A stretch of 42,777 bases of DNA from a virus, in the IMG/VR virus record IMGVR_UViG_3300020183_002723, positions 1 through 42,777 of that record. The stretch is one strand, 5' to 3'. This document shows positions 18,199 through 39,132 of the stretch, one piece after another. Each line of letters opens with the position of its first letter. Position 1 is the first letter of the stretch. Made by a program: the position numbers and the translations under genes. The notes under the pieces are model-generated. The model saw only the letters and a program-made list of their open reading frames with translations. It made no database searches and was not told the origin of the DNA.

Positions 18199-18948
18199 TT
18201 ATTTTAGTAATTCATTTAAAATTTCATAATATAATTTTTTATATCTTTTTAATGAATTTCTAATTTCTTTTGTTGATAGGTTAGTCATTTCACGAAGTTC
18301 AAATAATACAATATTCTTATTAAACTTATTATTATCATTATTATCGTTAAATGTTGATGGGTAGTTTTGGAATATATCAAACAAAGCATTACCTAATCTA
18401 ACCTCCTGTTCCGATATGTTTTTTTCGGACATTGTATCCTTAAGTTTTGATAGGAATTTTTTTATAATTTCTTCAGTGGTTAAATTATCATTATCCAAGT
18501 AATAAATCATGTCCGGCATGTTCTGAACATCTGTTGATATATCCTCATATGATATTTTCCTATTGGTATCTTTTTGGTCCTTCATTATTTGTCCCATAAG
18601 ATAGTTCTTACATATTGTACCAAAATATGAATACGCTTTTTTCTCCTTTGAGGGTTTAAATTTGTCAATTTTGGTCATTAAAAACGAATGTGTATCCATA
18701 TGAATTTCATCAAAATTCATATCTTTTCGGTACAATTTATATCGTCTAATGATTGACGATATCATTTTATCTAAGGGGTCCTTTAGAAACTCGTTATAAA
18801 TTTTATTTTTCTCTTCAAAAGTATTGGCGGTTAGGTATTCCCTAACCGCGTTTTCCTCTCTCTCAGCGAAGTAATTTTTTACTTTTGGTTTTCTACCCTT
18901 CTTTTTCTGTTCATTCTTGTCATCTAAAATATTTAATTCATTGGTCAT
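18199..18948 (-). CDS. Late sigma factor (gp55-like, sigma-70 region 2)
   Basis: The 249-residue protein directs RNA polymerase to phage late promoters. Residues about 79-130 match sigma-70 region 2: MNFDEIHMDTHSFLMTKIDK, then FKPSKEKKAYSYFGTICKNY and LMGQIMKDQKDTNRKISYED, the core-binding and -10-reading helices ('K-A-Y/F-SYFGTI-x-K-x-YL' is typical of phage gp55-type sigmas). The N-terminus has a basic KKKGRKPKVK patch. The C-terminal 80 residues contain a helix-turn-helix-like MTNLSTKEIRNSLKRYKKLY, a possible degenerate region 4. It precedes the structural operon on the same strand, a logical place for the late switch. It overlaps the upstream glycosyltransferase gene by one base. Confidence 0.88.
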   Translation of the reverse strand: MTNELNILDDKNEQKKKGRKPKVKNYFAEREENAVREYLTANTFEEKNKIYNEFLKDPLDKMISSIIRRYKLYRKDMNFDEIHMDTHSFLMTKIDKFKPSKEKKAYSYFGTICKNYLMGQIMKDQKDTNRKISYEDISTDVQNMPDMIYYLDNDNLTTEEIIKKFLSKLKDTMSEKNISEQEVRLGNALFDIFQNYPSTFNDNNDNNKFNKNIVLFELREMTNLSTKEIRNSLKRYKKLYYEILNELLK

Positions 18949-19754
18949 TAAACTTCTTGGGGTTCATATTTTATATCACGTTGGGTTGTGTAATGGTATT
19001 CTTTTTTAGCTGAGTCTATCCAGAATTTAACCTCATCATCAGACATCACCTCACTACCATTTTTGTAATTCCAAAATAATGAACCTTCTCTAAAATTCAT
19101 ATGTTTATAACCAATTTTTGGTATTGACATAATTCTTGGGGTGTTGGTGGTTAGTCTAAGTAAAAACTCATAACCAAAAGTTAATTTTATGTTTGTTTTA
19201 AATTTACCAATCTCTAAAAATGTATCTCGTTTAATCATCATTCCTGATATCTGAAAATTCTGATAGTTTTGAAGGGTGTCATTAGTTAAATAACCCATCT
19301 CTTGTGAGAAATTAGCCGCAAATGTAGCTTCATTTGTAAATCCAACAAAAACACCTTTATCATTAACGTCAACAACAATTGGTAAAAACGCGTTAATATC
19401 TTTGTAGATATTGGAATAGGTGTTAAAGTTTTTAAACCATATATTTGAGTATTCATCGTCAAATTCAATAAATGAAACCCATTCAGATTTGGACATCTCA
19501 AACCCGTGGTTAACTTGGGAACAAAAATTAGGTTCGCCAGTCCACTCCTCAAATATAACATTTAAATCACCATAATCGTGACTTTTAATGTGGTTAGTTA
19601 AACTTGTTTCATTACAATAAACAATTATTAATTCGTCCACATATTCTTTTTGATTTTTAACGGATTGTATCGACCTATTATATAAATCCTCAAAAAATGG
19701 TGATTGTGATGATTTTAGAGGTAATACAACTGATATTGTTTTTCTATTTTCCAT
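18948..19754 (-). CDS. GT-A family glycosyltransferase (GT2-like)
   Basis: The 268-residue protein starts with the GT2 strand KTISVVLPLKSSQSPFFEDL and contains VSFIEFDDEYSN (about 91-102), where the FDD replaces the usual DxD that binds the metal and nucleotide sugar. MMIKRDTFLEIGKF (about 173-186) is the usual acceptor-side segment, followed by the helix around FGYEFLLRL. It would transfer a sugar from a nucleotide donor in the cytoplasm; the acceptor is unknown. It lies next to a GT-B gene in a non-structural run containing a LicD homologue and a nucleotidyltransferase. Confidence 0.8.
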   Translation of the reverse strand: MENRKTISVVLPLKSSQSPFFEDLYNRSIQSVKNQKEYVDELIIVYCNETSLTNHIKSHDYGDLNVIFEEWTGEPNFCSQVNHGFEMSKSEWVSFIEFDDEYSNIWFKNFNTYSNIYKDINAFLPIVVDVNDKGVFVGFTNEATFAANFSQEMGYLTNDTLQNYQNFQISGMMIKRDTFLEIGKFKTNIKLTFGYEFLLRLTTNTPRIMSIPKIGYKHMNFREGSLFWNYKNGSEVMSDDEVKFWIDSAKKEYHYTTQRDIKYEPQEV

Positions 19755-19755
19755 A

Positions 19756-20817
19756 TTATTCTATTGTTTCTAATTTATTTAATTGTTCAGAAAATGACTC
19801 AATTCTAGTTGAGATCATTTTATCAAATGTTGATACCACATTATTATCGAAATCTGATTTATTTACAAATTTTGACACTGATGATTCCATAGATGTATAT
19901 AATTCCGGATTAATATTATCTTCCAACCAATTTTGTATAAAATCAGATATTACATCAACTACCATATTTTGGTTATTTATCCAAATACCATTATCTTCAT
20001 TCATCCATTCGGGCACCATGTTTGGTACTAAACCTATTACCGGTACACCACACTTCATTGATTCCAATGGGAATGTACCAAAACTACTAGTTGGGTCAAT
20101 CCAAACGGACACGAAAGCTTCTTTAACACCGTTGGAGAAATCCGAAACAGTTAAACCACGTAGATCTCTAAATGTTATCCATCGATATTGTGGATACTTA
20201 GTATAAAATGTTTTTACTAAATTAATCGTGTCTCTATGTTCTCTAGTGTGAATTGCTACGATTGTTTTTGGTGGGAATTCTGATTTTGTGAATTCATCAG
20301 AAATTACCGGTTCGATAACATCAACCGAAACATTCCTCATTACTGACTCAATATAGTCCTTTTGTTTTTCTGAAGTTGTTATACATTTTAAAAACCCTAA
20401 TTGTGACCACGTTTGACCAGGTTGTAAGGTTTCAAATATATAATCATATGATTGGCTAATGACAATTTTCCCACATGGTAATTTTGTTATTTGATCCATT
20501 ATGAACCCATAAATTTCCGGGATGATTATTAAATCTTCAGGTGACACTTCCAGGTTTTGACCATCAATAGATTTATGTACCAATTCATTCATATATTCCT
20601 CACCTAACCAACCAGAAACACCGACATAATCATTTTTTTCATGTAAAATGATCGAATTGTATCCTGATCTCTTTAGAGTTAAAGCCATGTCATAAATGTA
20701 AGATACTGAAGCTTTAGCGTTACCTCTTGTGTCTTGTACTAAGAAATAAATCCTAGACGATTTGTCCTTCATGTTTTGAATGGACCTTTCCAACTTTGTA
20801 ATTTGTTCCGTATTCAT
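19756..20817 (-). CDS. GT-B family glycosyltransferase
   Basis: The 353-residue protein has a short coiled N-terminus, then an N-terminal Rossmann-type domain starting SSRIYFLVQDTRGNAKASVS, and a C-terminal donor domain with AFVSVWIDPTSSFGTFPLES and MKCGVPVIGLVPNMVPEW (about 236-275), the GT4-type 'E-x-M-x-x-G-x-PVI' nucleotide-sugar site. Acceptor and sugar are unknown. It is 1 base from the next glycosyltransferase gene and 3 bases from the small gene upstream, clearly one operon. Confidence 0.85.
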   Translation of the reverse strand: MNTEQITKLERSIQNMKDKSSRIYFLVQDTRGNAKASVSYIYDMALTLKRSGYNSIILHEKNDYVGVSGWLGEEYMNELVHKSIDGQNLEVSPEDLIIIPEIYGFIMDQITKLPCGKIVISQSYDYIFETLQPGQTWSQLGFLKCITTSEKQKDYIESVMRNVSVDVIEPVISDEFTKSEFPPKTIVAIHTREHRDTINLVKTFYTKYPQYRWITFRDLRGLTVSDFSNGVKEAFVSVWIDPTSSFGTFPLESMKCGVPVIGLVPNMVPEWMNEDNGIWINNQNMVVDVISDFIQNWLEDNINPELYTSMESSVSKFVNKSDFDNNVVSTFDKMISTRIESFSEQLNKLETIE

Positions 20818-20820
20818 ATT

Positions 20821-21078
20821 TTATATTTTATTTATTATTTTTTTAACTAATAATGTATTAAAAGCTATTTTAAAAGGTATTGATAACTCAGTGGTTTTCA
20901 TACCTAAATTTTCATCAATTTCACCACCTTCAGTTAAAATGGTCTCAACCATCGATTTAACAGCTTCGTATTTCACAAGATGGATTTGTGTTTCACCGGA
21001 ATCACCAATAAACTGGACGTATTTTTCCATTTTATCTAGATCGATGTAGTAATTTTCATTGAATATTGAAAACATCAT
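20821..21078 (-). CDS. Small hypothetical protein
   Basis: The 85 residues run MMFSIFNENYYIDLDKMEKY then VQFIGDSGETQIHLVKYEAV, with a C-terminal amphipathic helix ending KIINKI. The start overlaps the HAD-like gene by 23 bases, suggesting coupled translation. No family is recognised; the pattern of two strands followed by helices looks like a small globular protein. Confidence 0.7.
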   Translation of the reverse strand: MMFSIFNENYYIDLDKMEKYVQFIGDSGETQIHLVKYEAVKSMVETILTEGGEIDENLGMKTTELSIPFKIAFNTLLVKKIINKI

Positions 21079-21748
21079 TTTTTATATTTTTTATTACTTC
21101 GTTAAGTTCCGATAATGTATGTATTTCATATTCGGAATATACGTGTTTATTATAATCGGTAACAAATTTTATTACCGTTTTATCCTTTGGTTTATTTAAA
21201 ATTAAGTCTGGGTTTGATGTTATTAAAATGTCAACTTGATTCCACATTTTTGGTTTTGTGATCTCACTATAAAAAAATACTTGTTCAACCAAACACCCAA
21301 ACTTAGAAAGAAAAAATAACGAAGCTGGTTTTGACTTACCAATTTCATCAGAAACTATGGATATTTCATATTCATCTCTATTATCGTAGTAAAAATCATT
21401 TAGGACATTGAATGTATTCATTTCCGTTGATGGGGAGTGACCAAAAAGTTCCATGGTATACTCCTCATACATAAACGAATATAATTCATCTTTATCCCTA
21501 AATTTAAAGTGCTTTTCTAAATCGAGTGAGGTCACATCACTCAGTATTTCATATTTAAACTCAGTAGATTCTAAATGACTGACATTCTCAATAATTTCAG
21601 TAGTATCACCGGAAATTAAATCCAAATTCATATCGTAAGTTTGTTCATTAAATTGGGGTGTTTCGATTAGGTATCTCTCATATAAATTTTTAAACTTACC
21701 TATAGTATCTCTAAGTACCCCATTAATTTCAATTCCTATTTTCGTCAT
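21056..21748 (-). CDS. HAD-like protein with altered motif I
   Basis: The 230-residue protein begins MTKIGIEINGVLRDTIGKFK. This looks like HAD motif I (D-x-D-G-V-x-R-D), but both catalytic Asp positions are changed (E-I-N instead of D-I-D). Later parts fit the fold: ISIVSDEIGKSKPASLFFLS (motif II Ser and a Lys for motif III, about 139-158) and VDILITSNPDLILNKPKDKT (motif IV region, about 182-200). The N-terminal insertion (about 30-120) would be a cap. With the nucleophile missing it is probably not a normal phosphatase; a regulatory or binding role is likelier. It overlaps the phoH-like gene by 20 bases. Confidence 0.7.
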   Translation of the reverse strand: MTKIGIEINGVLRDTIGKFKNLYERYLIETPQFNEQTYDMNLDLISGDTTEIIENVSHLESTEFKYEILSDVTSLDLEKHFKFRDKDELYSFMYEEYTMELFGHSPSTEMNTFNVLNDFYYDNRDEYEISIVSDEIGKSKPASLFFLSKFGCLVEQVFFYSEITKPKMWNQVDILITSNPDLILNKPKDKTVIKFVTDYNKHVYSEYEIHTLSELNEVIKNIKNDVFNIQ

Positions 21749-22508: not shown

Positions 22509-23063
22509 TTATAAATCTAAGTGAATATATTTACCCTTACTTGATTTTGGTGTTTTCCAATCATCACCAAACCTATCAACCAAATACTCCTCGATAGGAT
22601 CTAAAAATGGTAACATACCATATTTAGTTGGTAATTCTTTCACACCAAAATTAGGTTTAACAATGAAACCTTTTTTTTGATGTACATAACCGTATTCCGA
22701 CACTGTAACTAATTTATCTTCTAAAATATCATCATAGTAGTAATATATGTCAAAAATACAACCATTTGTATCAATATAAGCTGTTTGTATTGGTCTTCTT
22801 CTCCATTCCATGGTTCGAATAAGTTTAAAACCATCTAATACAACGTGTGATTGACCTATCTTGGACCTAACACCAATATCGATATCGGTATCACTTGGTA
22901 TAAAGTCACCGTCTCGATACAAACCAATAGCTGTACCAGCTGAAATCCACCAGGAACAATTTAACTGTGATTTAGCCTTACTTAAAGTATCGTTAACATT
23001 TTTTATTGACGATAATTTTTTTTCACTAAACCAAGAATGTGTCTTAACAATTAAATCTTTCAT
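22509..23063 (-). CDS. LicD-like nucleotidyltransferase-fold phosphotransferase
   Basis: The 184-residue protein has the LicD/fukutin pattern: SWWISAGTAIGLYRDGDFIP (about 37-56), then SDTDIDIGV (57-65), the metal-binding D-x-D of the nucleotidyltransferase fold. LicD proteins move a phospho-alcohol such as phosphocholine from a CDP-linked donor onto a glycan. FDIYYYYDD (about 103-111) supplies the next acidic strand. The neighbours are a methyltransferase and a putative kinase-nucleotidyltransferase fusion, which could make such a donor. The start overlaps the methyltransferase stop by 4 bases. Confidence 0.85.
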   Translation of the reverse strand: MKDLIVKTHSWFSEKKLSSIKNVNDTLSKAKSQLNCSWWISAGTAIGLYRDGDFIPSDTDIDIGVRSKIGQSHVVLDGFKLIRTMEWRRRPIQTAYIDTNGCIFDIYYYYDDILEDKLVTVSEYGYVHQKKGFIVKPNFGVKELPTKYGMLPFLDPIEEYLVDRFGDDWKTPKSSKGKYIHLDL

Positions 23064-23659
23064 TTTTTACAAATAAATGAAATTTGTTTAGTTCCAAAAT
23101 CACTTTCAATCTCTTCCGGATATATTTTATTAACTTCAATTATTTTAAAATGTTTTTCGATAATCCTAAACATTGTAGGTATTGTTCTGTAAATTGAACT
23201 ATAATTTGAGTTTAGTTGTTCCGAAAAGGTATCGACAAGTATGTCTTGTGTCTCCATTGAACATGGTGACTTTATATAAATTAAGTCGGACTGAATTCTA
23301 CTTAGATTATCGTGAATTATATCTTCATCAAATAAAAACGGAATAACACCGGAAAATACAGTAACGTCTGTTTTTGGTAAATCCACCGGATTGTAACAAT
23401 CGTAATAACCCGTGATAGCTGGTATGTTCACCATCATTTTTTCAGCGATATCAAAAGCGTAAAATGTTTCAATGTTTGTTAATTCTTTTAAACATTTAAT
23501 TAAAGCTCCGTCACCACAACCTAAATCTAATAAACTACCTTTATCTTTAATCTTAGGTATTAAGTAATTTAACTCGTGTAAACGTCTATCTTTTATTGTT
23601 CCATAGTTTGGGTATTGTTCTTGGTTCACCCAAAATTTTCTAGCTGTGTCTTTTCCCAT
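23060..23659 (-). CDS. SAM-dependent methyltransferase
   Basis: The 199-residue class I methyltransferase has motif I GSLLDLGCGDGALIKCL (41-57), a motif II-like TFYAFDIAEKMM (about 64-75) and TDVTVFSGVIPFLFDEDII (about 95-113) at the motif IV position. LHELNYLIPKIKDKG precedes motif I. The substrate is unknown; the setting among LicD, nucleotidyltransferase and glycosyltransferase genes suggests methylation of a sugar or small alcohol rather than DNA, and no DNA methyltransferase target motif (such as DPPY) is seen. It overlaps the LicD gene by 4 bases. Confidence 0.85.
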   Translation of the reverse strand: MGKDTARKFWVNQEQYPNYGTIKDRRLHELNYLIPKIKDKGSLLDLGCGDGALIKCLKELTNIETFYAFDIAEKMMVNIPAITGYYDCYNPVDLPKTDVTVFSGVIPFLFDEDIIHDNLSRIQSDLIYIKSPCSMETQDILVDTFSEQLNSNYSSIYRTIPTMFRIIEKHFKIIEVNKIYPEEIESDFGTKQISFICKK

Positions 23660-23660
23660 A

Positions 23661-24497
23661 TTATCTCATTTTTTTAGATTCTAATATACCACTTCTCGGT
23701 ATAAATTTACATTTAACATTATTTATTTTACACCATTCGAGTACTTCTTCATTTCCAGATAACAATAATTTACCAAAAGGGTCTGATTTTTGTTCGGTTA
23801 ATTTACCACTAAATTTTACAACCCTTACACCAATATTTTCTATTTCGGAAACAATCTCATCTTGTGTGTACTTTGAATTTGGTGGTACATCGTTGGTTAC
23901 AACTACAGTTAAATTATAATCCTTTTTTAATTTTAAAATAGTTGTTGCGTGACCAAAGTGTGGAGGGTTAAATTTACCAACAAAATAAGCTTCAGGTTTC
24001 ATCATATTTATTTGTTTTTGTATATATGACCTGGTTTCGTCAATCTCATTTAAATATTTTTTATTATGATCAATCTCCTCATTTATTGTACTATCATAAA
24101 CCAAATGACTACAATCCCTTTTTTCACCAATTTTTAATGTGGACAGATCAGTAGGTATGTCATCCTTAGTAAAAAAAAACTTATGTCGTGTTGTCCTTGG
24201 TTTTAATAGTTCACATCTATTTAAAATATCATACTTTGTCAATCCAATACCAGTACTTATTCTCTCGTCAAGGTAGTCTACCCACAATACCGGGATATTC
24301 AGATACCCATTTTTATAAAAAAATACATATCTATGACTACCATCCAAAATTGTCCCACTATTAATATCGGCGATTATTGGTTTATTTACCACACCGTTAA
24401 TCATTGATTCTAAATTTGACAGGTGGTGTTTAAATACTAATTCTAACGGGTTTAGTCTGTTAATATCCACAATCTCATATATTGGGTATTTTTTCAT
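23661..24497 (-). CDS. Fusion: ParB/SerK-like domain plus cytidylyltransferase-like domain
   Basis: The 278-residue protein has two domains. Residues about 1-130 resemble the ParB/Srx-fold small-molecule kinases of the SerK/SbnI type: KPIIADINSGTILDGSHRYV (39-58), NIPVLWVDYLDERI (67-80) and LLKPRTTRHKFFF (97-109), where LDG-x-HRY and the K-x-TRH motif are shared with serine kinases. Residues about 168-278 are an HxGH nucleotidyltransferase: AYFVGKFNPPHFGHATTILK with HFGH at 180-183, and a C-terminal SGILESKKMR like the usual S-S-T-x-I-R. It could phosphorylate a small alcohol or amino acid and then activate it as a nucleotide diphosphate derivative, but this is inference. It overlaps the next glycosyltransferase gene by 4 bases. 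Confidence 0.8.
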   Translation of the reverse strand: MKKYPIYEIVDINRLNPLELVFKHHLSNLESMINGVVNKPIIADINSGTILDGSHRYVFFYKNGYLNIPVLWVDYLDERISTGIGLTKYDILNRCELLKPRTTRHKFFFTKDDIPTDLSTLKIGEKRDCSHLVYDSTINEEIDHNKKYLNEIDETRSYIQKQINMMKPEAYFVGKFNPPHFGHATTILKLKKDYNLTVVVTNDVPPNSKYTQDEIVSEIENIGVRVVKFSGKLTEQKSDPFGKLLLSGNEEVLEWCKINNVKCKFIPRSGILESKKMR

Positions 24498-26005
24498 ATT
24501 AAAATAAATTTATCTTTTATTTTATTCATATTTTCTTTAATCACCGGAAGTAGATTATTTAAATAATCGTATTTTAATTTTTCCAAATTTTCCGGATCAT
24601 CGTTTCTGGTTTGGGACTCATAATGGTAAGCTACACAATCTGAACAAGTGTAATTCTTTAAACCCATGGATAGAGTTTTAATATTTAGCTCAACATCCTC
24701 GAAACAAGAAATATATTCTTGGTTAAACATACCAGATTTAATAAATAGTTCTTTTCTAATCATAAGTAATCCACCGGTATTTCCAAAATTTTCAACAATA
24801 CCAGTACGGTAATTATAATAATTTTTTAAATTGTGGTGTCCTACCTGTATTGAATTATTTGTTCTTAATAACCCAACAAACACGCCGTCGTGTTGTATCG
24901 TGTTGTCCTCAAAATGTAATCTGGACCCAACCGTACCAGTTAAAAGTTTGGTATTATAAACATTTAACATGCCACCAATTACATCATTTAATACCTTAAT
25001 GTCGTTGTTACAGAATAACAAAAATTCATAATCATCATTAATATGATTTACTACAACGTCATTATTTATTTTAGCGAAATTATAATAATCATATTCTATT
25101 AGTTTTATATTACCAATGGGTAATACGTTTTCTATAATTAATGATTTCTCAAGATCATTAGATCCGGTGTCAGCGATAAAAACATCAAACAATTCTTTGT
25201 CACAATTTTCATATAATGAAACAATACAACTTGTTAATAAGTCGACTTTACCTTTTGTTGGTATTATAACAGCTACTTTTTTTTGTTTTTTATTTTTTTT
25301 AAAATTTATTTCCGGAGTGTAAATGATTTCCGGTTTTAAATCTAATGGGAGTACATCACCCCATTTAGTTAAAAACTTTGACTTAGACTCAAAAAACTCT
25401 TGGTTTGGTTGACCCACAGATTGGTGGGTTATCTCAAATGAGGAAGTAACTCCAATCTTAACACCGTCCATAAAGTTTGGGATACAAAATAAATGGTCAT
25501 AAAAATGAAATTTACCTATCGTCTCATCAAAATTATGTTTTATTTTTGTTTTATCAAAAGACATAAATAAACCATCAATTGTCACTACTGGGATTATGAA
25601 TGGTAATTTTGGTGAATACTTACTTAAAAATTTTTTACCTCCCTCCGGATGGTGATATACCTGACCAACCATTGTTTGTGACATCCTCTCCCAATAAACA
25701 CCCGATTCTGGGAAATAACAAGATCCAGCTTTCCCAATGATACCAAATTCAGGGTTATTAGAAAAATCATTCAATAATTTTTTACCCCAATTCCTTTCGA
25801 GTTTTATGTCATTGTGACAACAAACTACAATGTCATAAACTGATATTGTAATTCCTGAATTATAGATTTCAGACAGTGAATATTGATTATTGTTTTCATA
25901 TTCCAATATTTGAACATCAATTAGCCCAACTGTATCAAGTAAGTGTTGTTTAAATTTAGAGTTGTATTCCGAATCCTTGTGGGTCGAATAAATAATCGTT
26001 ATCAT
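24494..26005 (-). CDS. Two-domain GT-A glycosyltransferase (GT2-like tandem)
   Basis: The 503-residue protein contains two GT-A modules. The first (about 1-235) starts MITIIYSTHKDSEYNSKFKQ, with a metal site-like VVCCHNDIKLERNWG (61-75) and FYDHLFCIP; it resembles StrF-type domains. The second (about 240-490) starts KKVAVIIPTKGKVDLLTSCI and has FLLFCNNDIKVL (about 330, NND for DxD), GNTGGLLMIRKELFIKSG and CFEDVELNIKTLSMGLK (E-D-V-E acceptor motif). Together it could act as a chain-building enzyme with two specificities. It overlaps the dUTPase gene by 4 bases. Confidence 0.87.
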   Translation of the reverse strand: MITIIYSTHKDSEYNSKFKQHLLDTVGLIDVQILEYENNNQYSLSEIYNSGITISVYDIVVCCHNDIKLERNWGKKLLNDFSNNPEFGIIGKAGSCYFPESGVYWERMSQTMVGQVYHHPEGGKKFLSKYSPKLPFIIPVVTIDGLFMSFDKTKIKHNFDETIGKFHFYDHLFCIPNFMDGVKIGVTSSFEITHQSVGQPNQEFFESKSKFLTKWGDVLPLDLKPEIIYTPEINFKKNKKQKKVAVIIPTKGKVDLLTSCIVSLYENCDKELFDVFIADTGSNDLEKSLIIENVLPIGNIKLIEYDYYNFAKINNDVVVNHINDDYEFLLFCNNDIKVLNDVIGGMLNVYNTKLLTGTVGSRLHFEDNTIQHDGVFVGLLRTNNSIQVGHHNLKNYYNYRTGIVENFGNTGGLLMIRKELFIKSGMFNQEYISCFEDVELNIKTLSMGLKNYTCSDCVAYHYESQTRNDDPENLEKLKYDYLNNLLPVIKENMNKIKDKFILI

Positions 26006-26598
26006 ATTCCAGTACTACCAAAACCTTTATCAGATCTATCTTTATCTTCTATATTATTAACCATATTTAGTTTAATCCATTTACCACAAACTACGGGGGA
26101 TAACACCCCTTGAGCTATTTTTTGACCTTTTTGTATTTTTATTTTTTCTTTTGTGGTGTTAAATACAATTACTTTTATTTCACCGGTATATCCTTGATCT
26201 ACGGTTCCTGGAGAATTTAATACCATTAAACCTTGTTTTAAAGCTAAACCACTTTTTGATCTAATTTGGATTTCATAACCTTCTGGAATGTCAAAGTGTA
26301 TTCCGGTTGGAATTAGTGTTCTGTCAAATGGGTCGATGTCGATTTCATCAGTTGAATGTAGGTCAAATCCTGAATCTGTTGGATAAGCGTATTTTGGATA
26401 TACCGAGTTTTGATTTGATACACTATAATTAACCGTTAATTTATTATTTGATTTCAACATCTCATCTTCTAGTTCTTTGATGTCGAATCCGTGACGTTCA
26501 ATTACATCGTTAACAACAAGGTTCTCAATCTCGTCGTTAAATAATCTTTGTAAATCATCAATTTCTTTTTTTAGATCATCTAAGTTATTATTTTCCAT
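26002..26598 (-). CDS. dut: dUTPase (deoxyuridine triphosphatase) with N-terminal extension
   Basis: Hydrolyses dUTP to dUMP, keeping uracil out of DNA and supplying dTMP precursor. All five trimeric dUTPase motifs are present: AYPTDSGFDLHS (71-82), IRSKSGLAL (112-120), LNSPGTVDQGYTGEI (128-142, with the catalytic Asp/Tyr), KGQKIAQGV (157-165... by count) and RSDKGFGSTG (188-197). The first 55 residues are an additional acidic coiled-coil segment (DDLKKEIDDLQRLFNDEIEN), unusual for this family; it may add oligomerisation or a partner contact. It sits between an exonuclease and a glycosyltransferase. Confidence 0.95.
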   Translation of the reverse strand: MENNNLDDLKKEIDDLQRLFNDEIENLVVNDVIERHGFDIKELEDEMLKSNNKLTVNYSVSNQNSVYPKYAYPTDSGFDLHSTDEIDIDPFDRTLIPTGIHFDIPEGYEIQIRSKSGLALKQGLMVLNSPGTVDQGYTGEIKVIVFNTTKEKIKIQKGQKIAQGVLSPVVCGKWIKLNMVNNIEDKDRSDKGFGSTGI

Positions 26599-27321: not shown

Positions 27322-28536
27322 TTATTTAATTAAGGATTTGTAAAATTCAGCTCTTTCTTTCGTAACATTATTTAAATCATATCGATCTTTAACGGTTTCG
27401 TATAGTCTTTCACCCAAATCAGTTATCATGTTTGGGTTATTCACTAGTTTTTTAATGTACTTGGACCAATCTCCGTGATTTCGATGTTCATCGACTAATA
27501 AAGCGTTACCATCAGTAAACTCACCATTTTTTAAAGCGTGTTTTAAATCGATCGTGTATGGACCAACATTTGAAGCTATTAAAGCTTTTTTATAGAATCC
27601 GGCCTCAATAACTTTTAATTGTGATTTCATACGATTAAATACGTGATTTTTTATTGGTGCCAATGATATATCAAATTTAGAATAATTTCTAGCGTATGTG
27701 TTTACCGGTCTAGTCCAAACTCTAACATAATTTTCTTTCTCGACTCCAGGATAATCGTTCTCGGTAAATGTATTTAAATAATCACGATATTTTGGTGTAA
27801 TGATTTTATAATTATCGGTAAATATTTCCTCATATTTAACCCAAACAGTTTCTTCTGGCCTTATTGGTCTTTGGGTTTTTTGACCGGTTTGTTTGTTAAT
27901 TTCAGTCACCTGTCCTCTGGTATCAAAACCACACACGAAAAATTGTAATTTATCCTGTACGGTACTTAATTTAGATACCATCCCATCAAGTAACTTTAAA
28001 TCGTGTAAATGTGATGACCCACCTAACCATCCAACTCTAATTTTATCTGATGGTTGTGTTGTTTCTGTAAATTGTGGGTCTTTTGGGTCTACAGCATTTG
28101 GGAAAACGACAACGTTTTTGTTTATTTTTCTGATTTCGTCAGCGAAAATTTCTGTGGTTGTAATCACATATGAGGAAACCTTTAAATTGTTTCTTATTTT
28201 TTCGTGTATTTTATTTTGTAGTATTAACTGGTGTATTGGGTGTTCTGGTGTAGGTAACCAATAATCATCAATATCAGCCACAACAACAATCCCCATTGAT
28301 TTTAATTTTTCAATTATTGTTACACAATTATCATAATCCTGTCCAATATTTCGATGAAAATGAACAATACTATAATTTTTCCAGTAACTAATATCATCAA
28401 TTCTTGGGTTGTAGTCTATGTCAACGTGAAAATCGTTAGGGTACATATTTTGTAGTTTAACATGTGGGTCAACACTTCTAAATTTACCAACACCAGACTG
28501 ATCTGATGGTAATACTAATACTTTAATTTTTTCCAT
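27322..28536 (-). CDS. GT-B family glycosyltransferase (GT4-like), first gene of non-structural operon
   Basis: I take the ATG at 28536; the longer frame to 28611 adds 25 AT-rich residues (MGFFIFIKVDIFCFF...) that reach into the terminator region. The 404-residue protein starts MEKIKVLVLPSDQSGVGKFR, a GT-B N-terminal strand and Gly loop, then has VVADIDDYWLPTPEHPIHQL, VITTTEIFADEIRK, VVFPNAVDPKDPQF and IRVGWLGGSSHLHDLKLLDG, a pattern seen in phage and bacterial GT4-like proteins. The C-terminal donor site is KSQLKVIEAGFYKKALIASN. The sugar and acceptor are unknown. It probably opens the operon running down to the late sigma; a clear promoter was not found, only a weak TACTTTTA (28554-28561) with poor -33 spacing. 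Confidence 0.87.
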   Translation of the reverse strand: MEKIKVLVLPSDQSGVGKFRSVDPHVKLQNMYPNDFHVDIDYNPRIDDISYWKNYSIVHFHRNIGQDYDNCVTIIEKLKSMGIVVVADIDDYWLPTPEHPIHQLILQNKIHEKIRNNLKVSSYVITTTEIFADEIRKINKNVVVFPNAVDPKDPQFTETTQPSDKIRVGWLGGSSHLHDLKLLDGMVSKLSTVQDKLQFFVCGFDTRGQVTEINKQTGQKTQRPIRPEETVWVKYEEIFTDNYKIITPKYRDYLNTFTENDYPGVEKENYVRVWTRPVNTYARNYSKFDISLAPIKNHVFNRMKSQLKVIEAGFYKKALIASNVGPYTIDLKHALKNGEFTDGNALLVDEHRNHGDWSKYIKKLVNNPNMITDLGERLYETVKDRYDLNNVTKERAEFYKSLIK

Positions 28537-28594
28537 AATATTTTTTATTCTTGTAAAAGTATACCAAAAAAAACAAAAAATATCAACCTTTATA

Positions 28595-37032: not shown

Positions 37033-39132
37033 ATGTCAGAAATAATAATAACAGATCCGATTGGTGGTAGTACCACTACGTTAAGATGTAAAGGTTTAAA
37101 TTCAGCTGGATCATTATACTCAACTGTGTTGGGTGGTATGAATAATACGGTAGTTGGTGACTCATCAACGATTGTTGGTGGTAGATGTAATTTATCAACT
37201 GGTGGATACTCATTTGTTTCTGGTGGTCAAAATAATCAATCATATTCCGATAATACAATAATTGGTGGTGGTGTTTGTAATATATTAAACGAAAATTCCT
37301 CTGGATCCATAATTGGTGGTGGTACATACAATCAATTATCTGGAACCAACTCAATAATTAACGGTGGTTCACAAAATACATTATTTGGTTGTCAATCACT
37401 AGTTGGTGGGGTACAAAATTATATTACTGGAAATACATCAACAATAAGTAATGGATTTTTAAATACAATATCTGGAAATAATTCAGTAATTGGTGGGGGG
37501 TCTTGTAATTCCGTGATTTCAGACAACTCGATAATTGTTGGTGGTCTAAATAATCTATTAACTGATGAGTCTTCCGTAATTGTTGGAGGATCATCAAATT
37601 TTTCAAATTCTAAATATAGTGTTATTTTGAATGGTTATGGGAATAGAACTTCTGGTGATATGTCATCCATAGTTAATGGTCGTGAGAACACATTATCAGG
37701 TGAATACTCATTACTGGGTGGTGGATTAACAAATAACTTAACCGGTAATTATTCAGTTATTGTTGGTGGTGTAAATAACAATAATGGGTCAACTCAATCT
37801 GTAATAGGTGGGGGATCAAATAACAATGTATCTGGGGATGGATCAGTCATCACTGGTGGTTTAAATAATACGTCTACATTAGAGTATACATCAATAAATG
37901 GTGGTAGATTTAACACTTCAGTAGGTGTGGGGTCTTCTATTGGTGGTGGTTTATATAATACTGTTATTGGATCAAACTCCTTTTCAAATGGGTATAATAA
38001 TGTGGTTTCTGGGGAATCGTCTTACGTATTGTCAAAAAATTCAATCTTAACAGCTAATAACTCAGCAATAATTGGTGGGACGGGTATAATTGGTAATACT
38101 GATAACACTCTTTACGTCGGTAATCTAAATTTATTCAACCCTAAAGAATTAATAAATTCAACATTTTTAACACCAAATACAAATCTACAACCACTTGGTA
38201 TTGATTCCGAGGGATTTGTAGGTCTTTTTAGTTTTAGTAATACAGATACGGTAACTACTGGAGCGACATATAATAACACCACTGGTCAGTTAACATTAGA
38301 GAATAGTAATGGTTATAACATATATGTTAGTGGTTTTAACACTTCAGATTGTTGTATAACTGGTGGTACATATTCAGGTAGAACCGGGGATATCATATTA
38401 AACCCAAATGGTCCAACACCAATCACAATAACTGGAATTACAAAAGTTGGTGGTGAGAGTGTTGTAATTGGTGATTACTCATCAGTAGGGTCTGGTAAAA
38501 ATAATACAATTTACGGTGAAAATTCTTTTATAGGTGGAGGACGATTTAATGTTGTTTCTGGAAATACATCAACTATATTAGGGGGTAATAGAAGTACTGT
38601 CTATGGCAACACATCTGGGATTTTAGCCGGGTCAAATAATTATTTGTCTGGTCAAACCTCAACAATAATAGGGGGTAGTGACAATATTTTAATTGGGTCC
38701 AACTCATCAATTATTGGTGGATCGGATAATACGGTATTAGGTAGTGATATTATCACAATAAATACTAACAATATCACAGCGACAACGTCAAATGTTGTCT
38801 ACTTGGGTGAAACTAATTTTACAAACTCGGTAAACTATAAGACGGTACAGTTAGATTCGTCAGCTGATCCTGTATTGTCAGATGAGGTTAATTACGTCTT
38901 TTATTTATCAACCGGACTAGGTGGTACAATAACATTACCAACAGCTAAGGACGGTAGAACCGTTTCTTTGATTCGGGTTGGGAATACTAATTCGGCTTTG
39001 GTTATAGGTCAAGGTGGAGCAAAAATTAATGGGGTTTCGATAGCACAAAATTTACCAACCACACTTTATACCGAGACTAAATTTGTTAGTAATGGTTCTG
39101 ATTGGTACGCTAATAGTTCAACACCACTATAA
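37033..39132 (+). CDS. Adhesive fibre 2: long YadA-like beta-roll repeat protein
   Basis: The 699-residue protein carries two repeat arrays. The first (about 25-350) has some 20 repeats such as STISNGFLNTISGNNSVIGG and SVITGGLNNTSTLEYTSING; a spacer (about 352-470, with NTDNTLYVGNLNLFNPKELI) separates it from a second array (about 470-580, SFIGGGRFNVVSGNTSTILG). The tip (about 590-699) ends in GLGGTITLPTAKDGRTVSLI and VSNGSDWYANSSTPL, a short beta domain seen at the ends of phage fibres. The spacer parallels that of fibre 1 (PLGIDSEGFV versus GLGIDSNGFV), so the two genes are paralogues. Ser/Thr at each repeat turn gives dense potential O-glycosylation sites. A terminator follows. Confidence 0.88.
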   Translation: MSEIIITDPIGGSTTTLRCKGLNSAGSLYSTVLGGMNNTVVGDSSTIVGGRCNLSTGGYSFVSGGQNNQSYSDNTIIGGGVCNILNENSSGSIIGGGTYNQLSGTNSIINGGSQNTLFGCQSLVGGVQNYITGNTSTISNGFLNTISGNNSVIGGGSCNSVISDNSIIVGGLNNLLTDESSVIVGGSSNFSNSKYSVILNGYGNRTSGDMSSIVNGRENTLSGEYSLLGGGLTNNLTGNYSVIVGGVNNNNGSTQSVIGGGSNNNVSGDGSVITGGLNNTSTLEYTSINGGRFNTSVGVGSSIGGGLYNTVIGSNSFSNGYNNVVSGESSYVLSKNSILTANNSAIIGGTGIIGNTDNTLYVGNLNLFNPKELINSTFLTPNTNLQPLGIDSEGFVGLFSFSNTDTVTTGATYNNTTGQLTLENSNGYNIYVSGFNTSDCCITGGTYSGRTGDIILNPNGPTPITITGITKVGGESVVIGDYSSVGSGKNNTIYGENSFIGGGRFNVVSGNTSTILGGNRSTVYGNTSGILAGSNNYLSGQTSTIIGGSDNILIGSNSSIIGGSDNTVLGSDIITINTNNITATTSNVVYLGETNFTNSVNYKTVQLDSSADPVLSDEVNYVFYLSTGLGGTITLPTAKDGRTVSLIRVGNTNSALVIGQGGAKINGVSIAQNLPTTLYTETKFVSNGSDWYANSSTPL
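37110..38100 (+). repeat. Degenerate repeat array A of fibre 2
   Basis: Repeats of 36-60 bases built on ATTGGTGGTGG-like and TCTGG[AT]AATAA-like blocks encode IxGGxxNT(I/V)SG units. Many units are similar enough to allow recombination with each other and with the fibre 1 array. Confidence 0.8.
38450..38770 (+). repeat. Degenerate repeat array B of fibre 2
   Basis: A second block of the same units follows after a 350-base non-repetitive spacer. It encodes about seven repeats, for example STIIGGSDNILIGSNSSIIG. Confidence 0.8.

Follow-up and report, generated by a model that had tools for sequence, protein, structure and literature searches.

The genes at positions 22509-24497 of a viral DNA fragment encode a fusion of a compact SerK/SbnI-like domain to an HxGH nucleotidylyltransferase (P0001), a SAM-dependent methyltransferase-like protein (P0002) and a LicD-family protein (P0003). 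We put at about even the chance that this cassette synthesises a phospho-alcohol or phospho-amino acid in nucleotide-activated form and then transfers it, in a pathway of which we infer every reaction, substrate, nucleotide and acceptor. The fragment, an IMG/VR record of 42,777 bases taken from end to end and referred to here as the window, has T4-type genes for the portal, the major capsid protein and the head protease and is therefore probably part of the genome of a myovirus. The proteins most similar to its capsid protein come from a 484-kb metagenomic phage, Microcystis phage Mel-JY01 and Flavobacterium phages, with 41-44% identity over about half of the protein.

The three open reading frames lie on the minus strand where the preliminary description had placed them, with P0001 (278 aa) at 23661-24497, P0002 (199 aa) at 23060-23659 and P0003 (184 aa) at 22509-23063. 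On the same strand they are preceded by a dUTPase gene (26002-26598) and, directly 3' of it, a gene for a double glycosyltransferase-2-type protein (24494-26005), whose 3' end shares 4 bases with the start of the fusion gene. Consecutive genes in this order (dUTPase, double glycosyltransferase, P0001, P0002, P0003) show 4-base overlaps or a 1-base gap, and the P0001, P0002 and P0003 genes are predicted to be translationally coupled. By domain and position, the kinase-like, nucleotidyltransferase and LicD parts are thus encoded together in the window. Further minus-strand genes encode a GT-B-type glycosyltransferase (27322-28539; PHROG 7162), a putative group-1 glycosyltransferase slightly under the Pfam cutoff (19756-20817) and a glycosyltransferase of family 2 (18948-19754). 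Elsewhere in the window, a 699-aa protein (37033-39132, plus strand) matches Pfam model PF21300 (grass-antifreeze beta-roll) in three stretches and is perhaps a tail or adhesin repeat; a protein at 21056-21748 (minus strand) gives a weak, sub-cutoff match to 5'-nucleotidase (NT5C) and is possibly inactive, its start reading IGIEINGVLRD where HAD enzymes carry DxD.

Residues 1-125 of P0001 (24123-24497, minus strand) form a domain that, by sequence and modelled fold, is a compact relative of the SerK/SbnI free serine kinases, with kinase activity predicted. When P0001 alone was searched against the PDB with phmmer, Pyrococcus 1vk1 was the top match (E 7.7e-5), followed by the free serine kinase of Thermococcus, with the DGxHR and TTRH blocks aligned separately. 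A profile of three phage relatives matched 1vk1 (E 2.7e-10), SerK (9.7e-10), SbnI (6e-4) and the DNA-binding Noc (0.09), and a five-row profile, to which two bacterial compact sequences had been added, gave 3e-16, 8.5e-16, 1e-8 and 3e-5, respectively. The NCBIfam SerK equivalog model, which represents the full-length archaeal form, matched P0001 with an E value of 3.7e-7 and 29.5 bits, far under its cutoff of 380 bits. Three minus-strand sites align with SerK: E19 (24441-24443) with E30, the residue altered in PDB entries titled 'E30A mutant' or 'E30Q mutant' (5x0e/g/j/k); DGSHRY (residues 52-57; 24327-24344) with DGHHR; and TTRH (residues 102-105; 24183-24194) with T222-H225. Of the two motifs originally proposed for this domain, LDG-x-HRY is borne out by DGSHRY, whereas K-x-TRH is slightly off, as residues 99-105 read KPRTTRH, that is, R-T-T-R-H compared with K-T-T-R-H in SerK. 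Residues invariant in all seven compact sequences, three from phages (P0001, the second viral contig L004 and Vibrio phage Va2) and four cellular (L041, G625, G674 and G510), include P17, E19, P40, D52, G53, H55, R56, P69, Y75, D77, T103, R104 and H105. A Trp at the position of SerK W102, which we take to help bind serine, is present in SerK and in the four cellular sequences and absent from the three phage domains, which makes serine itself doubtful as their substrate.

In a model of the N-terminal domain built from three sequences (mean pLDDT 57, with low confidence past residue 75), the six best fold matches were SerK/SbnI entries, with Z 8.0-8.9 over 98-109 residues extending to the TRH end, compared with Z up to 7.4 over approximately 82 residues for ParB/Noc; three further SerK/SbnI entries scored no better than ParB (5x0g, Z 7.0; 5x0b, 6.9; 5ujd, 6.5). 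SerK/SbnI thus come first by sequence and by fold, and the N-terminal half does not fall into a DNA-binding ParB group devoid of kinase residues, the outcome that would have spoken against the original assignment. P0001 lacks a feature of ParB DNA clamps: in Pfam searches up to E 1, the fold is followed by no HTH or dimerisation domain of ParB type, and PF01467 comes next instead. Foldseek with a whole-length P0001 model returned no match at E 0.001; because the N half of that model was poor (pLDDT near 30), the C half was used alone.

The C-terminal domain (residues 166-278; 23664-24002, minus strand) is, on the evidence of sequence and model, an HxGH nucleotidylyltransferase of predicted activity. 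Its motif reads HFGH (H180-F-G-H183; 23949-23960, minus strand) in P0001 and HIGH in the L004 fusion, and both proteins pass the PF01467 cutoff of 21 bits (26.8 and 24.1 bits). Together with the SerK-type top match in the PDB, this upholds the earlier proposal that one protein joins the two domains. The modelled residues match PPAT (Z 9.6), CTP:glycerol-3-phosphate cytidylyltransferase (9.1 and 8.8), the Fom1 cytidylyltransferase (5x3d; 8.9), Plasmodium CCT (8.8) and NMNAT (8.7), scores that are tied with one another and with unrelated Rossmann-like proteins at approximately Z 9. In pairwise scoring against 13 sequences, with subfamily names that we assigned from motifs, the NadD-like L188 reached Z 13.8 with P0001, a Myxococcus phage Mx1 protein reached Z 17.5 with P0004, a homologue of P0001, and two GCT-like proteins gave Z 6.1 and 0.2 with P0001. 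Sequence similarity of the domain therefore appears to lean towards adenylyltransferases rather than GCT-like proteins, PPAT/NMNAT types being the closest sequences. At its C terminus, RSG-x-LE is unlike RTEGIST, and IPRSGILESKKMR is similar to LPRTEGISSTKLR in one GCT-like protein. A scan of viral contigs for the FNPPHxGH motif (G-x-F-N-P-P-H-x-G-H) returned at least 120 stretches in at least 80 loci (L064-L143); among the loci listed, none of the ORFs, 79 of which bear the motif, matched the C-domain profile at E 1e-3, and a single weak match to the N-domain profile was seen (0.0044). We regard these as other phage HxGH proteins.

The genes directly downstream encode a methyltransferase and a LicD-like protein, as first described. 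P0002 carries the SAM-type motif LLDLGCGDG, with a best Pfam methyltransferase match of 22 bits, under the family cutoff of 27; searches for a clue to its substrate gave no informative match. P0003 passes PF04991 LicD (26.7 bits, cutoff 22.6) through a match that covers profile positions 7-35 only, of 227. In alignment it keeps the LicD motif G-[TS] ... R ... I-P-x-D-x-D-x-D, and the expected D-x-D is found in D58-T-D60-I-D62 (22878-22892, minus strand). The protein, short at 184 aa, has no counterpart to the middle part of the LicD proteins aligned to it, and its C-terminal block RFGDDWKTP resembles YGTNWQTP. The nearest NCBIfam model is Mf1 cholinephosphotransferase (E 8.8e-8, far under cutoff) and the nearest PDB entry is FKRP (E 0.023). 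LicD was present in one of the 31 genomes searched, a Bacteroidaceae genome (G002), where both LicD genes adjoin a gene for an HxGH nucleotidylyltransferase on the opposite strand (contigs C44 and C51; L190, L194, L196 and L197). This is an independent case of the pairing seen in the cassette.

The fusion was found twice in all, in the window and in L004, an 11,357-bp viral contig (GC 0.293) whose fusion is 60% identical to P0001. There, too, the methyltransferase gene comes next, with 67% identity to P0002 over 120 aa, and glycosyltransferases precede the fusion, two of them in L004. LicD is visible in the window only, because L004 ends inside the methyltransferase gene. Between these two fragments, the fusion and methyltransferase are the sole similarity in protein (E 1e-3) or DNA, an additional protein row reflecting the same DNA read on the opposite strand, which suggests that the two genes may move together as a unit. 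We conclude that the fusion and its methyltransferase form a genuine cassette, one that recurs and is more than a chance arrangement. Close-relative searches returned nothing in viral contigs for P0001 or P0003 and nothing in plasmids for P0001; phage matches to P0001 were weak and mostly ParB-like proteins, and alignment-based viral scans returned L004 again, L041 and a generic ParB (L042), with nothing else. A related-locus search for cellular fusions found none. The full fusion profile matched 0 of 390 Bacteroidota genomes, and in Pseudomonadota it matched two of 398, by the N-terminal domain only and with no full fusion. A two-motif scan of genome contigs gave 23 stretches, four of them with an open frame and the motif spacing, which were judged, by their low-complexity appearance, to be probably chance.

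Compact SerK-like proteins also occur outside the cassette. The five-row N-domain profile matched 17 of 398 Pseudomonadota genomes, full-length in three; in the other 14 the match stops at or before profile position 111 of 133, short of the TRH end. The open frames of the three full-length relatives span 136 to 221 codons, too short for a fused nucleotidyltransferase. SbnI makes O-phosphoserine, the substrate of SbnA, in staphyloferrin B synthesis, according to the accessible part of one report (PMC12414870). Besides an SbnA-family enzyme (TIGR03945; E 2.6e-70 and 2.8e-70, under the equivalog cutoff), the G625 and G510 loci encode an FslB-like exporter and a PLP decarboxylase, and the G674 relative adjoins a PLP decarboxylase gene. 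This position beside SbnA-like genes suggests that the compact form can act as an O-phosphoserine synthase. Compact SerK-like proteins of 120-140 aa in bacterial siderophore-type loci (L040, 6167-6574, minus strand; L063, 7544-7906, plus strand) adjoin SbnA-like genes and are likely a short form of the SbnI-type O-phosphoserine synthase. The compact gene of L041 (1-423, plus strand) lies at the extreme end of a viral contig and is perhaps host DNA beside a prophage; it was counted as cellular on its likeness to G625, a provisional assignment. Vibrio phage Va2 encodes a stand-alone compact SerK-like protein of 150 aa, annotated as hypothetical (L002, 3365-3817, plus strand). In Bacteroidota, the N-domain profile matched two of 395 genomes, both with generic ParB-like proteins. 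Generic ParB-like DGEHR proteins of one Bacteroidota genome (L033, 982-1857, and L035, 829-1770, both minus strand) are flanked by genes that by eye we named DNA-methyltransferase-like and terminase-like.

In the proposed pathway, the N-terminal domain of P0001 would phosphorylate serine or a related small molecule on its hydroxyl, and the C-terminal domain would use an NTP to link the phosphate to CMP (or AMP). P0002 would methylate the small group at one of three stages (before activation, after it or following transfer), and P0003 would move the phospho-group off the nucleotide and onto a sugar, which the neighbouring glycosyltransferases may make on a virion protein or the host surface. 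Serine is a possible substrate and not the favoured one. A series of kinase, nucleotidyltransferase, methyltransferase and LicD steps would fit the recurrence of the two-gene cassette, the coupling of the operon and the presence of glycosyltransferases nearby. Only tentatively would we go further and see in P0001 a mobile, self-contained donor-making enzyme, a single polypeptide that adds first a phosphate and then a nucleotide to a small hydroxyl compound of a new kind and, with the methyltransferase, adorns phage or host glycans with a methylated phosphodiester; we know of no cellular pathway that makes such an ornament.

In another explanation, the N-terminal domain has no kinase activity but would sense nucleotides as a ParB-fold module and so gate the nucleotidyltransferase, the phospho-alcohol coming from the host and the LicD branch staying intact. 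According to the accessible part of a 2025 survey in PNAS, enzymes are often fused to ParB-fold domains, which bind CTP, ATP or GTP, and an archaeal SerK-like protein bound CTP but not ATP, so that nucleotide binding need not imply kinase activity (PMC12704722). The lack of a W102 equivalent in the phage forms points the same way. Nevertheless, E19, DGxHR and TRH are invariant throughout the compact sequences, E19 corresponds to the SerK residue mutated in crystal studies, and the other Pseudomonadota matches end before TRH; we therefore consider sensing without catalysis unlikely.

The closeness of the C-terminal domain to PPAT/NMNAT types, and the location of its Myxococcus phage Mx1 homologue near a nicotinamide phosphoribosyltransferase, would suit an adenylyltransferase, with the pair making an ADP-linked compound that resembles a cofactor (salvage of NAD or CoA type) and has no link to glycans. 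We hold this to be quite improbable given the glycosyltransferases and LicD as neighbours; moreover, profile searches of the window and L004 recognised no NAD or CoA gene, and to our knowledge a SerK domain has no role in the synthesis of either cofactor. T4-like capsid genes together with several glycosyltransferases also bring to mind hypermodified phage DNA, for which the cassette might provide a group in place of a protein or cell-surface glycan, and phage glycosyltransferases that act on DNA have been reported (PMC12619734, in its accessible part). No base-modifying gene was recognised among the ORFs searched, which are part of those in the window, itself a fragment, and there seems little chance that DNA is the target. 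If the glycan decoration pathway is correct, phages themselves assemble zwitterionic or phosphodiester decorations from scratch, with possible effects on adsorption, superinfection exclusion or immune recognition, and the ParB/SerK fold gains a role in glycan chemistry. The cassette also draws attention to a family of compact bacterial proteins, serine-kinase-like and encoded in siderophore loci, that is open to direct assay.

The preliminary description knew of no phage pathway with this fusion, which agrees with the literature examined: publications on ParB with cytidylyltransferase or phosphoserine, and on SerK, yielded no SerK-nucleotidyltransferase fusion, and the main text of the 2025 ParB-fold fusion survey, as far as accessible, does not mention cytidylyltransferase, nucleotidyltransferase, PF01467 or LicD (PMC12704722). 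The nearest phage precedent, reported in 2021, is that of 'Flandersviridae' phages, in which LicD likewise lies beside a nucleotidyltransferase; theirs, however, is IspD, of another family, and the accessible part of the report mentions neither a SerK domain nor a methyltransferase (PMC8008677). In an arrangement like that proposed for P0001, the phosphonate fusions Ppm-PntC and Fom1 join their nucleotidyltransferase, a cytidylyltransferase, to the enzyme of the preceding pathway, as seen in the part of the source available, although they serve C-P chemistry and have another partner domain (PMC6697681). SerK itself is described, in the available text, as an ADP-dependent free serine kinase from Thermococcus (PMC5120207). 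The phage domain shares the ParB/Srx fold with SerK and Staphylococcus SbnI, and with SerK also the catalytic Glu, DGxHR and TTRH; it differs from SerK in its length of approximately 120 aa, without the SerK insertion of approximately 100 residues or a W102 equivalent, and in its fusion to a nucleotidyltransferase. The Campylobacter O-methyl phosphoramidate (MeOPN) pathway comprises an amino-acid kinase, a cytidylyltransferase, a methyltransferase and a transferase. This set is similar to that of the cassette, likened by description and not by alignment, and homologous enzymes were not recognised. In the Lic-1 phosphocholine pathway (LicA kinase, LicC cytidylyltransferase, LicD transferase), LicC is GT-A-like. 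LicA is protein-kinase-like (PMC4364537, accessible part), and the cassette shares the kinase, nucleotidyltransferase and LicD logic of this pathway as outlined in the available portion of PMC10434233. In contrast to Lic-1, the kinase and nucleotidyltransferase of the cassette are of other folds and reside in a single protein, and a methyltransferase is added.
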